NCBI GenBank assembly: GCA_944349855.1
Contig: CALVNS010000007.1
Span: 25,580 to 89,579 of the forward strand
DNA from: an uncultured Eubacteriales bacterium
GTDB taxonomy: Bacteria; Bacillota; Clostridia; Christensenellales; Aristaeellaceae
DNA length: 64,000 nt
Direction: 5' to 3'
The position numbers and the translations under genes were made by a program. Shown here piece by piece: positions 18,698 to 27,425 of the stretch; within the stretch, counting starts at the first letter, position 1, and every line of letters begins with the position of its first letter. The notes beneath the pieces were generated by a model. That model made no database searches, was not told the origin of the DNA, and worked only from the letters and a program-made list of their open reading frames with translations.

Positions 18698-18914
18698 TTT
18701 GCGCAAAAAGATGGTATGCTATAGGGGGAGTCACAAGATCGTCACTTTTTTCTCAAATAGTTGTAACCTTTCCGCCTTTTTATGCGTATAACATATAGAG
18801 GAATCTCCGGCTGTATTTCTCATCCGCTTTTTATCGGGCGTTCGCTTCCCGCCGCGCGCGGGATGCGATATAATGGTCCTTACATACTTGAACTCTTGGA
18901 AACGGAGCAATGGC

Positions 18915-20465
18915 ATGATGCGCTGCGTCGGCTTGACAAAAACGCTCCTGCGTCATATGTGCTGCGCGGCGGTGTTGTTCGCGCTGTGTCTTCTTCCCGC
19001 GTCCGCGTCGGGGGAGGGCTCTGTTCGTGCGCTCTTCGTCGCCTGTGAAAATTTTCTCAGCGCCGAGAGCATTGCCCCGTCTGCCCGCAACAACCTGGCG
19101 CTTTTGACCAGCGCCTTTGCCCGAAGCGTCGCGCCGTCCGACCTGCGCGTTGAAAACGGAACGATCGCCTCCTCTGCCGCGCTGGGCGAGACGATCGCCG
19201 CCGCGTTTGACGGCGCGCAGGAGGAGGACGTCTCGCTGCTGTACCTGAGCACGCACGGCATCTACGATCCGGCCATGCCGGACGAGCCCGCGCGCCTGCT
19301 GCTCAGCGACGGCGTCAGCGAGGACTCGATCACCGCCGCGCAGCTGGCCGACTACCTGGATCCGGTGCCCGGCATCAAGGTCGTGATCCTGGACGCGTGC
19401 AATTCCGGCGCGTTTATCGGCAAGGGCATGCCCGTATCCGTCGTGCGCTCGATGAACCTGCCGTTGAATCGGGCAGAGTACAAGGTCATCGCCTCCAGCG
19501 GCGGCAATGAGGACGCGTTTTATTGGAACGCCGGCGGCAATTACGGCGCGCAGGGCTCCTCATACTTTGCGCTGGCGCTCTACCACGCGCTGACGCCCCA
19601 GGGCGGACAGTACGAGGCGGACCAGAACCGCGACGGCGCCATTACGCTCAGCGAGCTGTCCGACTACCTGCTGCGGGCCAATGGCACATCCAGCGCCCAA
19701 TGCTATCCAGAGCAGGACGACTTTGTCCTCGTCTCCTATGACGTCCAGGCCGTCTCCAGCGCTTTCGATCCGTCGATTGCGTACTTCTCGCTCGGAAACT
19801 CCATCCTCACCTATGACGACCCGACGCTCACGTTCTCCTTTACTGCGCTGCGCGATGCGCGCATCAGCTATCAGATCGTCTATCACCAGCAGGGCCGCTG
19901 GATGTGGGAAAACGCCCAGCGCATTCTGGACACCAGCGAAAGCCCCGACGGCATGGTCAGCCCGGGCCGTAAGGAGCGCGCGCTGTCGCTATCCGTCGGC
20001 TCACTCTCCTCGGACGTGGCCGGCTATGCGCTCTTGCAGGTCATTGCCGAGTCTGAAGCGGGCACGGAGGTCGCCGAGAGCCGCCTCATCTCCGTGCAGC
20101 CCATCGTCGGCAATCCGCAGCTCTCGCTCTTTGCGCCGCTCTCGCTCACGCTTGGCGAGGGACGCGAGCTGGTGATCGAGGCGTGCCACGACTTCCCCGT
20201 CTCCCTCACGCTCGACGTCTACACCTCTCGCGGCGTGCATGTGCGCAATCTGGCGCGCTCCGTCCCCTCGCGGCCCAACGCGCTCACGCCCGAGGCATCG
20301 CTCTTCTATTGGGACGGCCGGGATGATGCAGGCGAATACGTCCTGCCCGGCCAGTACGCGCTGCGCCTGTCCACCACTGTCGGCGGACGCCAGTACGGCG
20401 CCGTGTTCGAATACGTCTACGTCCGCGAGGGAACGGTCATGATGCCCGTTCAGCCCATCGGCTGA
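18915..20465 (+). CDS. Secreted caspase-like (C14 family) cysteine peptidase with C-terminal FlgD-like Ig domain
   Basis: About 516 residues. An N-terminal signal peptide (hydrophobic stretch MCCAAVLFALCLLPASASG) is followed by a caspase/metacaspase fold. The dyad is His114 in LYLSTHG and Cys162 in VVILDACNSGAF, and a substrate-loop motif IASSGGNEDAFYW follows. The region from about residue 290 is beta-rich. The last 90 residues (VRNLARSVPS, then FYWDGRDDAGEYVLPGQYALRL) resemble the FlgD-type Ig domain seen at the C-terminus of secreted proteins. The start at 18915 has GGAG 7 bases upstream; TATAAT at 18869-18874 is the likely -10. Bacterial caspase homologues usually cut after Arg or Lys, but the target here is unknown. 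The stop lies one base from the stop of a convergent gene. Confidence 0.85.
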   Translation: MMRCVGLTKTLLRHMCCAAVLFALCLLPASASGEGSVRALFVACENFLSAESIAPSARNNLALLTSAFARSVAPSDLRVENGTIASSAALGETIAAAFDGAQEEDVSLLYLSTHGIYDPAMPDEPARLLLSDGVSEDSITAAQLADYLDPVPGIKVVILDACNSGAFIGKGMPVSVVRSMNLPLNRAEYKVIASSGGNEDAFYWNAGGNYGAQGSSYFALALYHALTPQGGQYEADQNRDGAITLSELSDYLLRANGTSSAQCYPEQDDFVLVSYDVQAVSSAFDPSIAYFSLGNSILTYDDPTLTFSFTALRDARISYQIVYHQQGRWMWENAQRILDTSESPDGMVSPGRKERALSLSVGSLSSDVAGYALLQVIAESEAGTEVAESRLISVQPIVGNPQLSLFAPLSLTLGEGRELVIEACHDFPVSLTLDVYTSRGVHVRNLARSVPSRPNALTPEASLFYWDGRDDAGEYVLPGQYALRLSTTVGGRQYGAVFEYVYVREGTVMMPVQPIG

Positions 20466-20466
20466 T

Positions 20467-21303
20467 TCAGCGGCGCGGACGAAAGGGCAGTATGCGCCCG
20501 CCGCTCACGCCCCAGGCCGTCAGCAGTCCGTCCAGCGCCCGCGCCGCGCAGTCGTAGCCCGCCTGTTCGCATTCCGTCGCCCGCCGCGCCGACAGCGCGC
20601 CCACGCCGCGCGGCATTGCCGGCGCGAGCACGTGCACGCCCTCGATCCGGGCGAAGCGCCGCGCATGGCACAGCGCGCAGCGCGTGAAGGCGTCCGTCCT
20701 TCCCTCGGGCCGGTAGGTCGGCACGACGAAGAGCAACTCCTGCGCGCCCAGCGCGCGCAGCGCCAGCGCGCACGCCTCGGGCTCCTGCGCCGCAATGAGC
20801 GACACATCCATCCATGACGCAGGCGTGACCCAGGCCGGCGCGCTCATCGCCGCGCGCACCCCCAGCCACAGCGGAGCTTCGCGCGTGAAGACGAGCCCGG
20901 ACCCCGCGGGCTCCGACAGCGCGCGCAGGCCCGGCGCCGACGTAAACGCCAGCCCTTTGCCCGAAAGCAGCGCCACGCATGGCAGCGCCAACGGCGTCTT
21001 GCACGCGCGCATCGGCGCGCCCTCCGTGAGCGCCAACAGCACACGCGAAAGCGCTCGTCCCCTCGCCGCCTCCCAGCCGAGCGGATGCCCCAACGCGCGC
21101 CTTCCGACCAGCGCCGCGCCCAGCGCGGCGCTTTGTAGCGGCGTCGTACCAAGCGCTGCCAGTGCCGCCGCCAATGCGCCGCTCCCGGCGCCGCAAAGCG
21201 CTCCGGGCGTGACCGCCCGCTCCGACAGCGCACGCAGCACGCCCGCATGTGCCGCCGCCGCGATGCCTTCGCCGCACAGTGCCAGACCCAGGCGCAAGCC
21301 CAT
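20467..21303 (-). CDS. Degenerate patatin-like protein, probable pseudoenzyme
   Basis: About 278 residues. The start MGLRLGLALCGEGIAAAAHAG corresponds to the patatin oxyanion segment, and LRALSERAVTPGALCGAGSG corresponds to the helix and nucleophile elbow that normally reads GTSAG. Here the pentapeptide is Gly38-Ala-Gly-Ser-Gly42, so the nucleophile position is glycine and the serine is shifted by one. The usual DGG motif is MDVS. It may therefore be catalytically inactive, or the alignment may be off by one. ATG 21303 has a purine-rich GAGGGGAGGG directly upstream; a longer ORF to 21390 is open but lacks a ribosome-binding site. There is no signal peptide. The function is unknown. Confidence 0.6.
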   Translation of the reverse strand: MGLRLGLALCGEGIAAAAHAGVLRALSERAVTPGALCGAGSGALAAALAALGTTPLQSAALGAALVGRRALGHPLGWEAARGRALSRVLLALTEGAPMRACKTPLALPCVALLSGKGLAFTSAPGLRALSEPAGSGLVFTREAPLWLGVRAAMSAPAWVTPASWMDVSLIAAQEPEACALALRALGAQELLFVVPTYRPEGRTDAFTRCALCHARRFARIEGVHVLAPAMPRGVGALSARRATECEQAGYDCAARALDGLLTAWGVSGGRILPFRPRR

Positions 21304-21423
21304 CCCTCCCCTCGCCCAACAGCGTATGCGCGCGGCGCCGTTTTTCGCCCGCAACCAAAAGATTTTTTGCGAGATTCTTTTGCGTTGCAACGCTGCGGGG
21401 GCTTTTCTCGTCTTATTGTTGTG

Positions 21424-21432
21424 TGCTATAAT
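21424..21432 (+). promoter_or_regulatory. Extended -10 promoter (TGCTATAAT) of the CotH/VTC cluster
   Basis: TGC followed by TATAAT at 21427-21432. No convincing -35 hexamer is present. The start codon lies about 75 bases downstream. Confidence 0.6.
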
Positions 21433-21512
21433 GCGATATGGGCCTTGAGGCCCGACCGACCGCGGCGTTTCCTTTCATCCGTTCGCCGCCCCGGAAAGGT
21501 GGAATTTTCTAC

Positions 21513-24500
21513 ATGCGTTCATCCCGTACCCAGACCGCGTCCGGCGCGCGCAAGCGGCGCACGGGCCGCGAGACGAGCCCGAAGGGCACGGTGCTGGGCA
21601 TCGTATTGCTGGCGGTCTTCGTATCGGCGTTCGTGCTGCTCGCGCCCAAGACGCCTACGCAGTCCGCGGCCGCCAACGTGACCGGCACGCAGACCGACGC
21701 GGGCGCCAGCATGGGAAGCCCGGACCTGCACGTCACCGAGGCGATGTCCTCCAACCGCACGGCCTATCCTGACGAGACGGGCAGCTTCCCCGACTGGATC
21801 GAGCTGACCAACGAGGGAGAAACCGCCATCCAGCTCAAGGATTACGGCCTGTCCGACACCGAAACCAAGATCACGTTCGTCTTCCCCGAGATGACGCTCG
21901 GGCCGGGCGAACGCGTCGTCGTGTTCGCGTCCGACGAGAGCCGCTCCGAGTCCGGCAAGCCCCTGCACGCCAAGTTCAAGCTCTCGTCGCTGGGCGACAA
22001 CGTGGTGCTCTTCGGCCCCGACGGCGTGGTCATGGAGACCGTCCAGCTGCCCGCCATGGACGCGGACGTCTCCTACGCCAAGACCGGGGAGGGCTGGATC
22101 ATCACCGACATGTACACGCCGGGCTATGAGAACACGCAGGAAGGCTACGCGCTGTTCCTCGCCTCGTCCTATCTGGAGACGGGCGTACTGGTGATCAACG
22201 AGGTCATGGCCTCCAATGTGACCACGCTCAAGGACGACGATGGCGACTACAGCGACTGGATCGAGATCTACAATACCTCTTCGCAGACGATCGACCTGTC
22301 CAATTACGCGCTCTCCGACGATCCGAGCAGCCCGATCAAATTCCGCTTCCCGCAGGGGGCGACGATCGAGCCCGGCGGCTACTACGTGGTCTTCGCCTCA
22401 GGCAAGGACCGCGAGGGCACGGACGGCAGCTGGCCGCACGCGCGCTTCAAGCTTCGGGCCGAGGGTGAAACGGTGCTCCTGTCCGACATCCAGGGCCGGC
22501 TGCTGGACAAGGTGACGTACGACCTGCTTGAAGCCGACACCTCGTGGGGGCGCAGCCCGGACGGCACGGGCGGCTTCACCACCTACACCCAAACGACGCC
22601 GGGCCTTTCCAACACGCAGGAGAGCGCGCTGATCATGGATCAGCGCCTCACCGCCGCCAACACGCAGGGCCTGTTCATCACGGAGGTCATGTCCTCCAAC
22701 CGAAAGACCTCCCTGCCGGGCGTGCAGGGCACCTACGACTATGTCGAGATCTACAATGCCAGCGGACAGGCCGTCAACCTGAAGGGTTACGGCCTGTCCG
22801 ACAACGTGAAGAAGCCGCGCAAATGGCTCTTCCCGGATGTGACCATTCCCGCAGGCGGGTACCTGCTGGTCTACTGCGAGGCGGCCAACGTCGGCATGGA
22901 GACCGAGACGGTCCACTACGCCAACTTCAACCTCAGCGTCGGCGGTGAGACGGTCCTGCTCTCTACGCCCGACGGCACGCTGCTGGACAAGCTCGTCGTG
23001 CCCTCGCTCTACAGCGACGTATCCTACGGCAGAACCGTCGGCCAGAGCGGCCTTTTTTATTACAGCACGCCGACGCCCGGCGAGCCCAATCTGGGCGGAT
23101 TCTCCGGCTTTTCTGAGCCGCCCGTGTTCATCACGCGCGGCGGCCTGAACGAGCGCCCCATCGAGGTCGAGATCCAGGTGCCCGAGGGCGCGACCGTCTA
23201 CTACACCACGGACAGCACCGACCCCACGCAGCAATCCATGGTCTACGATGAGCCCATCGCCGTCTCGCAGACGACGGTCATCCGTGCGCGTGCCTATCAG
23301 CCCGGCCTGGAGGGCTCGCAGATCGAGACGCAGACGTATTTCGTCTCCACCTACCACACGATGCCCGTCATCTCGCTGGTGACCGATCCAGACAACCTCT
23401 GGAATGAGGAGACCGGCATGCTCGCCGACGGCCCAACCCTCGACCGGGATAACACGGAGCCCCCATGGGAGGACGCCACCTATTGGAAAAAGCTGCACTA
23501 CTCGGGCTTCATTGAGTACTACGACGAGGACGGCGTGCAGCAGATCTCCCAGGGCATGAACTTTCACGTGATGGGCCAGTTCTCATTGGACATGCCGCAA
23601 AAGTCCTTTGCGATTCGCGCGGACGCGCAGTTTGGCGAAGAGCTGTTCAACTACGCGTTCTTCGAAGACCGGCCCTATACCTCCTATTATGCCATCGTGC
23701 TGCGCAACGGCGGCCAGGATGGCAAGTACACCCGCGTGCTGGACGGCCTGCAGGCGCGCCTGGTCGATCAGGCGGGCTCGTCCGTCATCACGCAGGCCTG
23801 GAAGCCCGTGATCGTCTATCTCAACGGGCAGTACTGGGGCCACTACAACCTGCGCGAACGCGTCGGCGCGGAGATGATCGCCCAGCATGAGGGCTGGGCC
23901 AACCCCGACGCCATCGACATTCTGGAATCCGACGGCACGCGCTCCAGCCAGGTCAACCAGGGCTCCAATGCGGACTACGTCGACCTGGTCGACTATGTGG
24001 AGAGCCACGACCTGACCCAGGATCCCGAAGCGCTGCAATACGTGCTGGACCGCGTGGACGTGGAGAACATGATCGACTACTTCTTCTTCGAGATGTTCTT
24101 CGGCAACACCGACCCGGGCAACATCCGCTTCTACAAGAGCGATGAGGAGGACGGCAAGTGGCGTTACATCCTCTACGACGTGGACTGGGGGCTGTTCAAC
24201 TCCTCGTCCGGCGGCGTGGCCTACGTGCTCAATGAGAGCGGCATGGGCAACTACCGGATCAAGTCCAACGTGCTGCTGCGCCATCTGATCCAGGTGCCCG
24301 AGATCCAGGACCAGTTCCTGCGCCGCGGCGGCGTGCTGTTTCAGACCGTGCTGACCACCGACAACATGATCTCGCTGCTGGACGAGATGATCGCCCAGAT
24401 CACGCCCGAGATGGACATGCACTTTGACCGCTGGGCGGCCGAGATGCACCCCAAGATGAGCTTCGACCAGCCCAAGAACGGCCCGGGCGCCAAGTCCTAC

Positions 24501-24650
24501 TGGCAGGAGCGCGTTGCCCGCGCCAAGAACGTCATGAAAAAGCGCCCGTCGATCTTCTGGGCGGAGGTGCAGGAGTACTTCGGCCTCTCGCAGGCGAAGA
24601 TGGAGGAGTACTTCGGCCCGCAGCCCGAGATTCCGGCCGACGCAGTGTAA
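21513..24650 (+). CDS. Membrane-anchored lamin-tail-domain and CotH-kinase protein
   Basis: About 1,045 residues. A basic N-terminus and one membrane helix (VLGIVLLAVFVSAFVLLAP) place the rest outside. Three lamin-tail domains begin near residues 73, 226 and 387, each opening with the TEVMSSN/NEVMASN pattern and containing DWIEL/DWIEI/DYVEI. A chitobiase/FN3-like domain follows (about 546-612, TVYYTTDSTDPT), then a CotH protein-kinase-like domain from about 616 (MPVISLVTDPDNLW), with VYLNGQYWGHYNLRERVG, NTDPGN near 865 and the metal-binding DVDWG near 888. The ATG at 21513 has GGAAAGGTGG upstream. CotH of Bacillus is an atypical spore-coat kinase; targets here are unknown. It is the first gene of a unit with DUF4956 and VTC genes (gaps of 30 and 16 bases). 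Confidence 0.92.
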   Translation: MRSSRTQTASGARKRRTGRETSPKGTVLGIVLLAVFVSAFVLLAPKTPTQSAAANVTGTQTDAGASMGSPDLHVTEAMSSNRTAYPDETGSFPDWIELTNEGETAIQLKDYGLSDTETKITFVFPEMTLGPGERVVVFASDESRSESGKPLHAKFKLSSLGDNVVLFGPDGVVMETVQLPAMDADVSYAKTGEGWIITDMYTPGYENTQEGYALFLASSYLETGVLVINEVMASNVTTLKDDDGDYSDWIEIYNTSSQTIDLSNYALSDDPSSPIKFRFPQGATIEPGGYYVVFASGKDREGTDGSWPHARFKLRAEGETVLLSDIQGRLLDKVTYDLLEADTSWGRSPDGTGGFTTYTQTTPGLSNTQESALIMDQRLTAANTQGLFITEVMSSNRKTSLPGVQGTYDYVEIYNASGQAVNLKGYGLSDNVKKPRKWLFPDVTIPAGGYLLVYCEAANVGMETETVHYANFNLSVGGETVLLSTPDGTLLDKLVVPSLYSDVSYGRTVGQSGLFYYSTPTPGEPNLGGFSGFSEPPVFITRGGLNERPIEVEIQVPEGATVYYTTDSTDPTQQSMVYDEPIAVSQTTVIRARAYQPGLEGSQIETQTYFVSTYHTMPVISLVTDPDNLWNEETGMLADGPTLDRDNTEPPWEDATYWKKLHYSGFIEYYDEDGVQQISQGMNFHVMGQFSLDMPQKSFAIRADAQFGEELFNYAFFEDRPYTSYYAIVLRNGGQDGKYTRVLDGLQARLVDQAGSSVITQAWKPVIVYLNGQYWGHYNLRERVGAEMIAQHEGWANPDAIDILESDGTRSSQVNQGSNADYVDLVDYVESHDLTQDPEALQYVLDRVDVENMIDYFFFEMFFGNTDPGNIRFYKSDEEDGKWRYILYDVDWGLFNSSSGGVAYVLNESGMGNYRIKSNVLLRHLIQVPEIQDQFLRRGGVLFQTVLTTDNMISLLDEMIAQITPEMDMHFDRWAAEMHPKMSFDQPKNGPGAKSYWQERVARAKNVMKKRPSIFWAEVQEYFGLSQAKMEEYFGPQPEIPADAV

Positions 24651-24680
24651 TCCCAAAGCAAACGACGAGGAGGAACCCCC

Positions 24681-25355
24681 ATGCAGAGCATCCAGAACGA
24701 TCCCGGCGTACTGAGTTGGTTTTCCGCGCAATTTGCCCAGCTGACCCCGATGGAGATGGTCATTGCCCTGGCCTCCGGCCTGTTCGTCGGCCTGATCATC
24801 GCCTTCGTCTACCGCAAGACGTACCGCGGCGTGCTGTTCAGCCCGAGCTTTGCCACCACGCTGATCATGCTCACGATGATCACCACGCCCGTGGTCATGT
24901 GTATCGGCTCCAACATCGCCCTGTCGATGGGCATGGTCGGCGCGCTGTCCATCGTGCGCTTCCGCACCGCCGTCAAGGACCCCATGGACACCGCCTACAT
25001 GTTCTGGGCGCTGACGATGGGCATCCTGCTGGGCGCCGGACTGTACCTGGTCGCGCTGGTCGTCGTGGCCGGCATCGGCCTGACGATGCTGGTGCTCTCC
25101 TTCGTGCGCATGAAGAGCCCCAACACCTACCTGCTGGTCGTCCACTATGACGAGGATGTCGAGCCCGACGTCAACAGCACCGTCGCGCGCATTCGCAACC
25201 GCCGCCTGCGCTCCAAGGTCGTCAGCCGCGGCGGCGTGGAGCTGACCGTCGAGGTGCAGCTGGGCGAGCGCAGCGACATCGTCAACCGCATGCTCGACAT
25301 CGAGGGCGTGCACAACGCCACGCTGATCGCCTGCCAGTCCGAGGCAGGCAACTGA
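24681..25355 (+). CDS. DUF4956 membrane protein
   Basis: 224 residues. Three or four membrane helices lie between residues 25 and 140. The conserved core is SPSFATTLIMLTMITTPVV, then MGMVGALSIVRFRTAVKDP, which is diagnostic of DUF4956. A C-terminal cytoplasmic ferredoxin-like domain of about 80 residues follows. It lies between the CotH-type gene and the VTC-type polymerase gene, a neighbourhood that recurs in Firmicutes and actinobacteria. As the only multi-pass protein of the unit it is a plausible membrane partner for the polymerase, for example for polyphosphate export or anchoring. That role is inference. Confidence 0.9.
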   Translation: MQSIQNDPGVLSWFSAQFAQLTPMEMVIALASGLFVGLIIAFVYRKTYRGVLFSPSFATTLIMLTMITTPVVMCIGSNIALSMGMVGALSIVRFRTAVKDPMDTAYMFWALTMGILLGAGLYLVALVVVAGIGLTMLVLSFVRMKSPNTYLLVVHYDEDVEPDVNSTVARIRNRRLRSKVVSRGGVELTVEVQLGERSDIVNRMLDIEGVHNATLIACQSEAGN

Positions 25356-25371
25356 CGGACGGAGGCGGAAG

Positions 25372-26076
25372 ATGGCCATCACCAGCTATCCCGTGCGCCA
25401 TGAGCTCAAATACCTCGTCCATCCCTCGGAGCTGCACTACCTGCGCTCCGTGCTCGACGGCCTGCTCATGCACGACCCCAACGGCGACGAAAACAACGAA
25501 TACCACATCCGCTCGCTGTACTTCGACACGCTGCACGACGACGCGCTGCATGAGAAGATCGCCGGCGTGGGCAACCGCAAGAAGTACCGCATCCGCATCT
25601 ACAACTTCTCCGACCGGCTGATCCGCCTGGAGTGCAAGCGCAAGATCGGCGACCTGATTTCCAAGCAGTCCGTGCGCATCCCGCGCGACCTGGCCGAGCA
25701 GATCATCGCAGGCGATCCCTCCGGCCTGGAGTACATGCGCCACCCGCTTCTTCGCGAGGTCTTTGTGCAGATGCGCACCAACCTGCTGCACCCCGTCGTC
25801 ATCGTCGATTATGTGCGCGAGGCCTACATCACCGACGCGCAGGACGTGCGCATCACGTTTGACAGGCGCCTGCGCACGGGGCTGTACAGCAGCGACCTGT
25901 TCAATCCGCGCATTCCCACCTTTCCGGTCTTCGACGATTGCAAGGAAATCCTCGAGGTGAAGTTTGACCAGTTCCTGCCCGCGTACCTGCAGACCGTGCT
26001 CTCCGGCGTCACCGCCGAGCGCAGCGCGGTCTCCAAGTACGTGCACTGCCGCCGGTACGAAGAAAAGGAATACTGA
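25372..26076 (+). CDS. VTC-domain polyphosphate polymerase-like protein
   Basis: 234 residues, a stand-alone VTC domain of the triphosphate-tunnel metalloenzyme fold. Visible tunnel residues are Arg and Lys of RHELKYLV, RSLYFDT, the two Arg of KYRIRIY, LECKRK, the Arg of VDYVREAY, ITFDRRLRT, and the acidic-basic pair in ILEVKFDQFLP. In yeast Vtc4 this domain makes polyphosphate from ATP. The charged tunnel residues are kept, so activity is plausible. There is no membrane segment, so it would depend on the DUF4956 protein encoded 16 bases upstream for membrane association (inference). Confidence 0.9.
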   Translation: MAITSYPVRHELKYLVHPSELHYLRSVLDGLLMHDPNGDENNEYHIRSLYFDTLHDDALHEKIAGVGNRKKYRIRIYNFSDRLIRLECKRKIGDLISKQSVRIPRDLAEQIIAGDPSGLEYMRHPLLREVFVQMRTNLLHPVVIVDYVREAYITDAQDVRITFDRRLRTGLYSSDLFNPRIPTFPVFDDCKEILEVKFDQFLPAYLQTVLSGVTAERSAVSKYVHCRRYEEKEY

Positions 26077-26079
26077 ACA

Positions 26080-26116
26080 AATCAGGGCCGGGGAGATGCT
26101 CTTCCCGGCCCTGATT
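26080..26116. terminator. Bidirectional terminator between the VTC and MFS genes
   Basis: A 13-base perfect stem (26080-26092 with 26104-26116) lies between two convergent stop codons. The T-rich flank is weak on both sides. Confidence 0.7.
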
Positions 26117-26135: not shown

Positions 26136-27401
26136 TCAGCCCGCCTGAGCGAGCCGCTCGCCGCTCTCTCGCGCGATGCACACGCCCATGAACATCGTGA
26201 ATGCCGTCATGCCAAGCGTCAGCACCAGCGGCAGCGCGCGGTTCAGCTCCGACAGCACGCCGGCGATCAGGCCGAACGGCGCCGTCACCAGCAGCATCAT
26301 CGCGTAGAACAGCCCCAGCATCCGCGCGCGCTCCTCCGGATCGATCGTCAGCATTTGGATGGACGTCGTCAGCGGATTGAGCGTGGACAGCGCCACCGCC
26401 TCCAGCAGCACCGAGAGCACGACCATCCAATAGGCGCCCGCGGGCATGAGCAGCACGCACAGCTGCGACGCGGCCAGGATGCCCACGCCCGCAAACAGCG
26501 GCAGGCGGAACCGGCGCACCGACACACGCGGCACGATCGTGAAGTAGCACATGAGCATCAGCAGCGACTTGATGGTCGAGAAGATCGACAGGTTCTCCGC
26601 CGCGATGCCCAACCGGTCCGTCAGCAGCAGCGGCCAGAACGTCTCCAGCACGTTCTTGATCGCCGCGTAGGAGGCCACCATGCCGACCGTCAGCATGACG
26701 GCGCGGTTTTGGAGCATGGCGCGCAGCACGTGCCGGCTGTCCAGCAGGTGCGTCAGCAGCGGCACGTTCGCGCACTCGCGCATGCGCCGCTCGCCGATCT
26801 TCGTCTCGTGCGAGAGGAAGTAGAGCACGATGAACTTCGTCGTCATCAGCACGAACGTGAAGCCGTAGATCGCGCGCATCGTCGGCACCAGGCCGAACGC
26901 ACGCACCAGCAGGTAGGCCAGCGGAGCCACAAAGCCCGCCAGCAGCCCCGCCACGTGCGAGACCGCATACAGCCGCACCAGGCGCGAGGGCTCCGAGTCC
27001 TCCATCAGCAGCAGATCCCACGAGTTCTCCGTCACGCGCCACATGCCGTTGAACAGCGCCGCCGCCACGAACCAGCGGTAGTCCTGCGCGAGCATCCACA
27101 GAAACGTCGGCACGCTCCAGGACAGCAGATCGAAGATGACCGTGCAGCGCCGCCGGCCCAGCTTGTCCGTCAGCACGCCCGACAGCAGCGCCCAGAACAT
27201 CTGGGAGATGAAGAAGATCGTCGACATCGCGCCGATCTGCACCGGCGTCATGCCCAGCGCGGCCATGTACACCGACACGAAGGGCACGTACAGGTTATAC
27301 GGGATGCCCCAGAGGGGCTCCGTCCACAGGCATGCCCGCTCGTTGCCCTTCAAGTGCACGAGCAGGTCGATCAGCGGGTTGCGCGCGATTCGCTTGAGCA
27401 T
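26136..27401 (-). CDS. MFS transporter
   Basis: About 421 residues with twelve predicted membrane segments. The loop between TM2 and TM3 has the MFS signature GVLTDKLGRRRC. A short N-terminal cytoplasmic part (MLKRIARNPLIDLL) precedes TM1. ATG 27401 is chosen because AGGAGGA lies a few bases upstream; the GTG at 27416 lies inside that ribosome-binding site. It follows the DUF554 gene by 24 bases on the same strand and may be co-transcribed with it. The substrate is unknown. Confidence 0.88.
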   Translation of the reverse strand: MLKRIARNPLIDLLVHLKGNERACLWTEPLWGIPYNLYVPFVSVYMAALGMTPVQIGAMSTIFFISQMFWALLSGVLTDKLGRRRCTVIFDLLSWSVPTFLWMLAQDYRWFVAAALFNGMWRVTENSWDLLLMEDSEPSRLVRLYAVSHVAGLLAGFVAPLAYLLVRAFGLVPTMRAIYGFTFVLMTTKFIVLYFLSHETKIGERRMRECANVPLLTHLLDSRHVLRAMLQNRAVMLTVGMVASYAAIKNVLETFWPLLLTDRLGIAAENLSIFSTIKSLLMLMCYFTIVPRVSVRRFRLPLFAGVGILAASQLCVLLMPAGAYWMVVLSVLLEAVALSTLNPLTTSIQMLTIDPEERARMLGLFYAMMLLVTAPFGLIAGVLSELNRALPLVLTLGMTAFTMFMGVCIARESGERLAQAG

Positions 27402-27425
27402 GGGTGTCCTCCTCACATCCGGTCT

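Follow-up and report, generated by a model that had tools for sequence, protein, structure and literature searches.

What is the task of a polyphosphate polymerase-like protein that is encoded beside a membrane protein and a kinase-like protein of the cell surface? The question is raised by three adjacent genes in a 64,000-nucleotide stretch of DNA (the window) from an uncultured Eubacteriales bacterium (assembly GCA_944349855.1, contig CALVNS010000007.1, positions 25,580 to 89,579). The genes encode the following proteins.

21513-24650, + strand: membrane-anchored surface protein of 1045 aa with a CotH domain (Pfam, hydropathy, CotH profile match to 5jd9)
24681-25355, + strand: DUF4956 protein of 224 aa, with an MgtC-like membrane domain followed by an ACT-like C-terminal domain (Pfam, 56-sequence alignment, AlphaFold, MgtC profile)
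25372-26076, + strand: predicted VTC-type polyphosphate polymerase, soluble, 234 aa (Pfam, 55-sequence alignment, alignment with yeast Vtc4, Foldseek)

An original prediction, made from the letters of the window, had treated the three genes as one transcription unit of undescribed function, in which polyphosphate may be made at the membrane and used or sensed by an extracellular kinase-like protein. Comparison across genomes identified VTC and DUF4956 as the constant core of the unit, and the surface protein as its apparently exchangeable part. The explanation that we consider best, with a probability of about 0.42, is a polyphosphate machine that resembles VTC and works on behalf of anchored surface proteins.

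The VTC-DUF4956 pair and its surface partners

We surveyed 249 genomes of the phylum, that of the window included, together with 42 loci around the VTC and DUF4956 copies of these genomes; 59 named VTC relatives were kept as a separate set. VTC was matched in 35 of the 249 genomes and DUF4956 in the same 35 (the module genomes), with 42 copies of each, and the genome of the window carried one match to each of the VTC, DUF4956 and CotH/lamin-tail families. Both core genes were in view in 40 of the 42 phylum loci, on the same strand in 40/40 and within 500 bases of each other in 39/40. A CotH gene lay between VTC and DUF4956 in the fortieth pair (L088), while L075 and L076 represent a single pair split across contig ends. 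Among the named relatives the pair was present in 57/59, always on the same strand and at most 368 bases apart, with CotH contiguous in 44; in the two without a pair in view, VTC was at a contig end. Since the pairing was repeated in 35/35 module genomes, chance or misassembly can be rejected as its cause. Beyond the phylum, support comes from one plasmid record and from named control genomes. VTC and DUF4956 were matched in the same 3 of 14 controls, and in that of Corynebacterium glutamicum, a laboratory organism, VTC, DUF4956 and CotH were all matched at the level of the whole genome. DUF4956 was adjacent to VTC in all five plasmid records with VTC, one of which is actinobacterial.

The distances among VTC proteins were correlated with those among DUF4956 proteins over 54 loci (r = 0.92), and none of 2000 permutations gave a value as high. 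Paralogous modules within a genome, which are ~20-40% identical, tended to agree between VTC and DUF4956 in their closest relatives; with one member examined per pair, the agreement was clear in G022, G101, G189 and G240, weak in G106 and absent in G105. As judged from these comparisons, VTC and DUF4956 evolve together. CotH was matched in 33/249 genomes, 29 of them with VTC, and 6/35 module genomes gave no CotH match, which rules out CotH as an obligate part of the unit. The predicted co-occurrence of the three families was borne out, far above chance; for CotH it was not complete. We conclude that VTC and DUF4956 are the constant core.

The position of the third gene was then considered by partner type. 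CotH proteins were scored as exported by hydropathy, using a 17-residue window and a value over about 1.6, judged by eye and without a signal-peptide program; the CotH of G072 was judged from its sequence itself. Left out of the exported count were G176 (under the cut-off, with a stop inside) and, in the named-relative set, L005, L006, L014, L021, the first copy of L049 and L058, whose open reading frames (ORFs) are cut by contig ends or overlong. Cthe_2159 was counted at its curated cut-off, which excluded G080 and G109. On these terms, exported CotH was present in 28/35 genomes with VTC as compared with 1/214 without it, and Cthe_2159 in 20/35 as compared with 3/214. Exported CotH or any Cthe_2159 was found in 35/35 VTC genomes and in 4/214 others (Fisher tests uncorrected for relatedness, the 35 module genomes representing 19 family codes). 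The CotH proteins of VTC-less G124 and G139, of 361-364 aa, had no membrane segment.

Where CotH was not adjacent to the pair, the pair was followed directly by Cthe_2159 in 10 loci (six by Pfam scan, four by gene places) or accompanied by a lamin-tail protein, which in some cases carried leucine-rich repeats. Some of the Cthe_2159 proteins had lipoprotein-like N-termini. Four rows of the locus tree were labelled LTD, L068 and L092 by Pfam scan and L087 and L101 by clustering. With 5 labels for the partner type, the tree called for 8 changes, of which Cthe_2159 accounted for 3. In a single case, L066, a Cthe_2159 gene lay within a CotH clade and the N-terminus of its product fitted a profile of the CotH anchor (35.1 bits, E 2.7e-9), the best remaining non-CotH ORF reaching 10.6 bits. 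By predicted domains and topology, the third gene encodes one of several surface proteins that can stand in for each other. Cthe_2159 proteins have been reported to bind cellulose and polygalacturonic acid (PMC6712302). The same source places CotH and Cthe_2159 among the domains present in anaerobic rumen fungi and missing in their chytrid relatives. At L061 (8531-10867), the module is directly followed, on the opposite strand, by another CotH gene whose product has a hydrophobic segment at its N-terminus.

Predicted activities of the three proteins

The Pfam domains assigned to the three proteins all scored above their curated cut-offs; among the NCBIfam models, none did so for any of them. 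The VTC domain (PF09359) scored 126 bits against a cut-off of 23 (E 2.3e-36), and hydropathy showed no hydrophobic segment in the protein, in keeping with the claim that it has no membrane part. The alignment of 55 sequences contained 17 invariant columns. Among the residues invariant in 55/55 were R73, R75 and E195, which align with R264, R266 and E426 of Vtc4, so the charged tunnel residues are kept, as predicted. A yeast complex carrying Vtc4 R264A/R266A/E426N is catalytically impaired (PMC9911596). The structural model (pLDDT 94.5) had Vtc4 (3g3r) as its top Foldseek match (E 1.8e-13), and the 13 best matches by fold and the 10 best by sequence were all yeast VTC subunits. Fold and residues suggest that the protein uses ATP to build polyphosphate at the cytosolic side of the membrane.

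DUF4956 was matched by Pfam over the curated cut-off (E 2.8e-13). Hydropathy gave several hydrophobic segments, and the AlphaFold model (pLDDT 84.5, pTM 0.69) placed a ferredoxin-like, ACT-like C-terminal domain after the membrane helices, in agreement with the predicted helices and further domain. The motif R93-F94-R95 was invariant, R93 and R95 being present in 56/56 sequences, and in the model these two arginines lie on a loop joining helices of the membrane domain. Basic residues line the membrane channel of the yeast VTC complex (PMC9911596). A DUF4956 profile matched a profile of 30 MgtC proteins with a probability of 97.1 (E 4.8e-11, 202 columns), whereas controls with four unrelated membrane families and VTC gave 0.1-0.3. 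Both existing MgtC models scored DUF4956 under their cut-offs (Pfam, 16.7 bits against 31.4; NCBIfam, 22.7 against 214). By profile, DUF4956 is a relative of MgtC that stands outside the MgtC family proper; a link to MgtC had earlier been stated for SIR_1592 of Streptococcus intermedius (PMC12345266). Foldseek returned nothing under E 0.001 for the model, its weak matches including ACT folds, among them MgtC 7qa5 (E 0.015), and a search of solved structures with the DUF4956 sequence profile gave no match.

The surface protein has one hydrophobic segment, at residues 26-44 by hydropathy. Pfam assigned to it three LTD (lamin-tail) stretches, Fn3_assoc and the chitobiase-type CHB_HEX_C_1, and a C-terminal CotH domain (PF08757, 136 bits against a cut-off of 23.8, E 2.6e-39). 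This is the architecture originally described for it, including the anchor. A sequence search of solved structures with the full protein gave no match; a profile built on 34 CotH rows, with the window protein as the first, matched spore coat protein H (5jd9) with E 2.9e-78. E153, D238 and D260, in the numbering of the window fragment, were invariant in the 34 rows. On profile evidence, the domain is kinase-like and belongs to the CotH family.

Gene layout, flanks and relation to known systems

The three genes have the strand, order and spacing given in the original prediction: CotH ends at 24650, and the gaps are 30 and 16 bases. Two candidate transcription signals accompany them.

21424-21432, + strand: extended -10 promoter-like site TGCTATAAT, a consensus match without a -35 box
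about 26080-26116, + strand: terminator-like hairpin of 17 pairs (-32.9 kcal/mol) between convergent genes, with a weak T tract

An extended -10 promoter had been proposed, and the site TGCTATAAT answers to it; a sigma-70 scan that also required a -35 box listed no promoter, so we regard the site as a consensus match and reject a standard sigma-70 promoter. Likewise, the proposed terminator exists as a hairpin after VTC, but its T tract is poor and it was not among the sites listed by a terminator scan. The CotH protein more likely starts at the ATG at 21513 than at that at 21438, since the latter lies only ~5 bases past the -10 box and the former is preceded by AAAGGTGG. The sequence TGNTATAAT occurred 7 times on both strands of the window (66% G+C), as compared with 0.17 times expected from base composition. 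Extended -10 promoters may thus be usual in this stretch.

The unit is flanked on the opposite strand by a patatin-like gene (20467-21390), which is divergent from it and scored 24.1 bits, slightly under the Pfam cut-off of 27.7, and by an MFS gene (26136-27416). The gene at 18873-20465 encodes a protein with a signal-like N-terminus and a weak match to CHAT, a caspase-like domain (E 3.3e-6); its relatives lie ~4.2-4.3 kb upstream of the VTC/DUF4956 pair in 7 loci, that of the window included. Elsewhere in the phylum, a histidine kinase gene, often with a response regulator, was found within 1200 bases of the module at L065, L069, L070, L072, L074, L077, L079, L083, L086, L089, L090, L095, L096, L099 and L104.

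The gene set, a candidate for a novel system in the original prediction, had already been published. A cotH gene, a polyphosphate polymerase gene and a DUF4956 gene have been reported beside pelDEADAFG, in streptococci, clostridia and bifidobacteria (PMC7112168), and the same three families are adjacent in S. intermedius as SIR_1592-1594, where they have been studied by deletion (PMC12345266). Loss of SIR_1592 (DUF4956-type) or SIR_1594 (CotH) reduced aggregation in artificial sputum to less than half, and the amount of Pel rose in the former mutant and fell in the latter (PMC12345266). In that 2025 paper, the DUF4956-type protein is given four membrane segments with an ACT and an MgtC domain and the CotH protein is secreted; its authors report that they could not find the trio anywhere but in the Pel locus. 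Unlike this accessory set, the unit of the window stands alone, in the order CotH-DUF4956-VTC, and has three lamin-tail domains on its CotH protein. PelG was not matched in 33/35 module genomes, including that of the window (93% complete), and was present in the other two, which rules out a Pel accessory function as a general account of the unit. CotH, DUF4956 and VTC were contiguous in 25/42 phylum loci, or in 22 loci of 21 genomes after three from PelG genomes were dropped; counting that of the window, 22 genomes carry the contiguous set without PelG. One fetched locus, L080, has a PelG gene, directly before CotH.

An earlier record may exist under other names. In NELoc-2 of Clostridium perfringens, VTC, a 'tubulin/FtsZ' protein of 222-226 aa, CotH, a 685 aa protein, a HEAT protein and a glycosyltransferase stand in a row (PMC2879425), and a Planococcus plasmid has the same gene order with DUF4956 in the 'tubulin' position. 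From position and size, the 'tubulin/FtsZ' proteins CP4_0461 and CP4_0464 are probably DUF4956, in which case the three-gene row would have been in print in 2010 outside a described Pel locus (PMC2879425). In searches of an open-licence library, VTC-DUF4956 was not found named as a unit outside Pel, nor tied to Cthe_2159.

The unit also resembles the eukaryotic VTC complex (Vtc1/Vtc3/Vtc4; PMC9911596) in its tunnel fold, its R264/R266/E426 equivalents and its combination of a soluble polymerase with a membrane part bearing basic residues. It differs in that the window VTC has no SPX domain by Pfam and in having a separate, MgtC-like protein as the membrane partner. The window CotH shares its domain family with the spore coat kinase 5jd9 and, unlike it, is anchored outside the membrane, as judged by hydropathy, and fused to lamin-tail domains.

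A proposed polyphosphate machine for surface proteins, and its rivals

In the reading that we favour, VTC and DUF4956 would form a two-protein polyphosphate machine, in which DUF4956, never found without VTC in the sampled genomes, docks or controls the polymerase. It may also carry the chain across the membrane, as helices do in the yeast VTC complex. The product would serve the third, anchored protein outside the cell, in the window a kinase-like CotH domain carried by a stalk of lamin-tail domains. As ATP is not expected outside the cell, the most economical use of polyphosphate would be as a phosphate source or ligand of the outside protein. Those CotH copies that lack a membrane segment, such as the ones of the sporulation type, could keep using cytosolic ATP. 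The surface head would be swappable among CotH, Cthe_2159 (a carbohydrate-binding beta-helix family) and lamin-tail proteins, and from this exchange it follows that the general role is probably the building or modification of the cell surface or matrix. There is good support for a functional unit in which a VTC polymerase acts together with a membrane partner and with a kinase-like protein anchored outside the cell, and polyphosphate made at the membrane and used by an exported protein would fit the genome pattern. The boldest form of the proposal, a bacterial transmembrane machine whose MgtC-like DUF4956 channel supplies the exchangeable anchored proteins with phosphate and lets kinases of the CotH type work outside without ATP, is unlikely.

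Several observations weigh against a polyphosphate machine of this kind. Seven of the 54 tree rows had no neighbouring surface partner, one of them (L018) being cut by a contig end upstream. Exported CotH occurred in VTC-less G072 and Cthe_2159 in VTC-less G030, G036 and G232, and G066, with VTC, has only a CotH that lacks a membrane segment. PPK1 is also encoded in the genome of the window, so the module is not the sole route to polyphosphate there. To our knowledge, polyphosphate export by a bacterial VTC is not known, although no search was aimed at it. Aggregation persisted in the S. intermedius mutant of the VTC gene (SIR_1593), for which no defect has been reported (PMC12345266); the phenotypes of that species are not predicted by a simple chain from VTC through polyphosphate to CotH. 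Salmonella MgtC has been described as regulating phosphate transport and not as a channel (PMC6658541).

In the main rival, DUF4956 is an MgtC-like regulator of phosphate/ATP balance, perhaps acting via a histidine kinase. VTC polyphosphate would then be only a sink or signal in the cytosol, and the exported proteins would belong to the matrix and share the regulon. The long profile match to MgtC, set against its controls, and the lack of a reported aggregation defect in the VTC mutant are consistent with it, as is the finding that MgtC of Salmonella has PhoR as its target and activates the transport of phosphate (PMC6658541). Histidine kinase genes lay within 1200 bases of the module in 15/42 phylum loci, as against 5 kinases further out, with one kinase used as query; however, no two-component genes stand beside the unit of the window. 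Such a regulator would also leave unexplained the near-confinement of exported CotH and Cthe_2159 to VTC genomes and the swap of exported domains on a similar anchor in L066. We consider it possible, if somewhat unlikely.

An accessory role in exopolysaccharide synthesis, with CotH phosphorylating a glycan or the synthesis machinery and VTC/DUF4956 supplying or tuning phosphate, would accommodate the published position beside pel genes (PMC7112168), the altered Pel amounts of the mutants (PMC12345266) and the ligands of Cthe_2159 proteins (PMC6712302). The module directly follows PelG in L080, lies among glycosyltransferase and acyltransferase genes in L110, and in L111 is accompanied by a glycosyltransferase gene, the third one downstream of CotH. 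This role is nevertheless unlikely, given the missing PelG match in 33/35 module genomes (the genome-wide survey covering PelG among polysaccharide systems) and the fact that none of the six scanned neighbours of the unit in the window was a glycosyltransferase. Finally, VTC might be a hydrolase or another triphosphate tunnel enzyme that makes no polyphosphate. Triphosphatases have the same fold and matched the model (Foldseek E about 1e-9 to 1e-5), and no biochemical assay of a VTC protein from bacteria turned up in a literature search; but with yeast VTC subunits occupying all the best fold and sequence matches, and the three Vtc4 equivalents invariant, this is highly improbable.

The pairing gives bacterial VTC proteins a membrane partner, DUF4956, and the survey shows that a set of genes published as an accessory of Pel stands as a system of its own. 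Through it, two surface protein families of unclear role, CotH and Cthe_2159, become linked to polyphosphate, and the phosphate supply of a kinase-like protein outside the cell becomes a testable question. The unit suggests that bacteria may use polyphosphate for work outside the cell.

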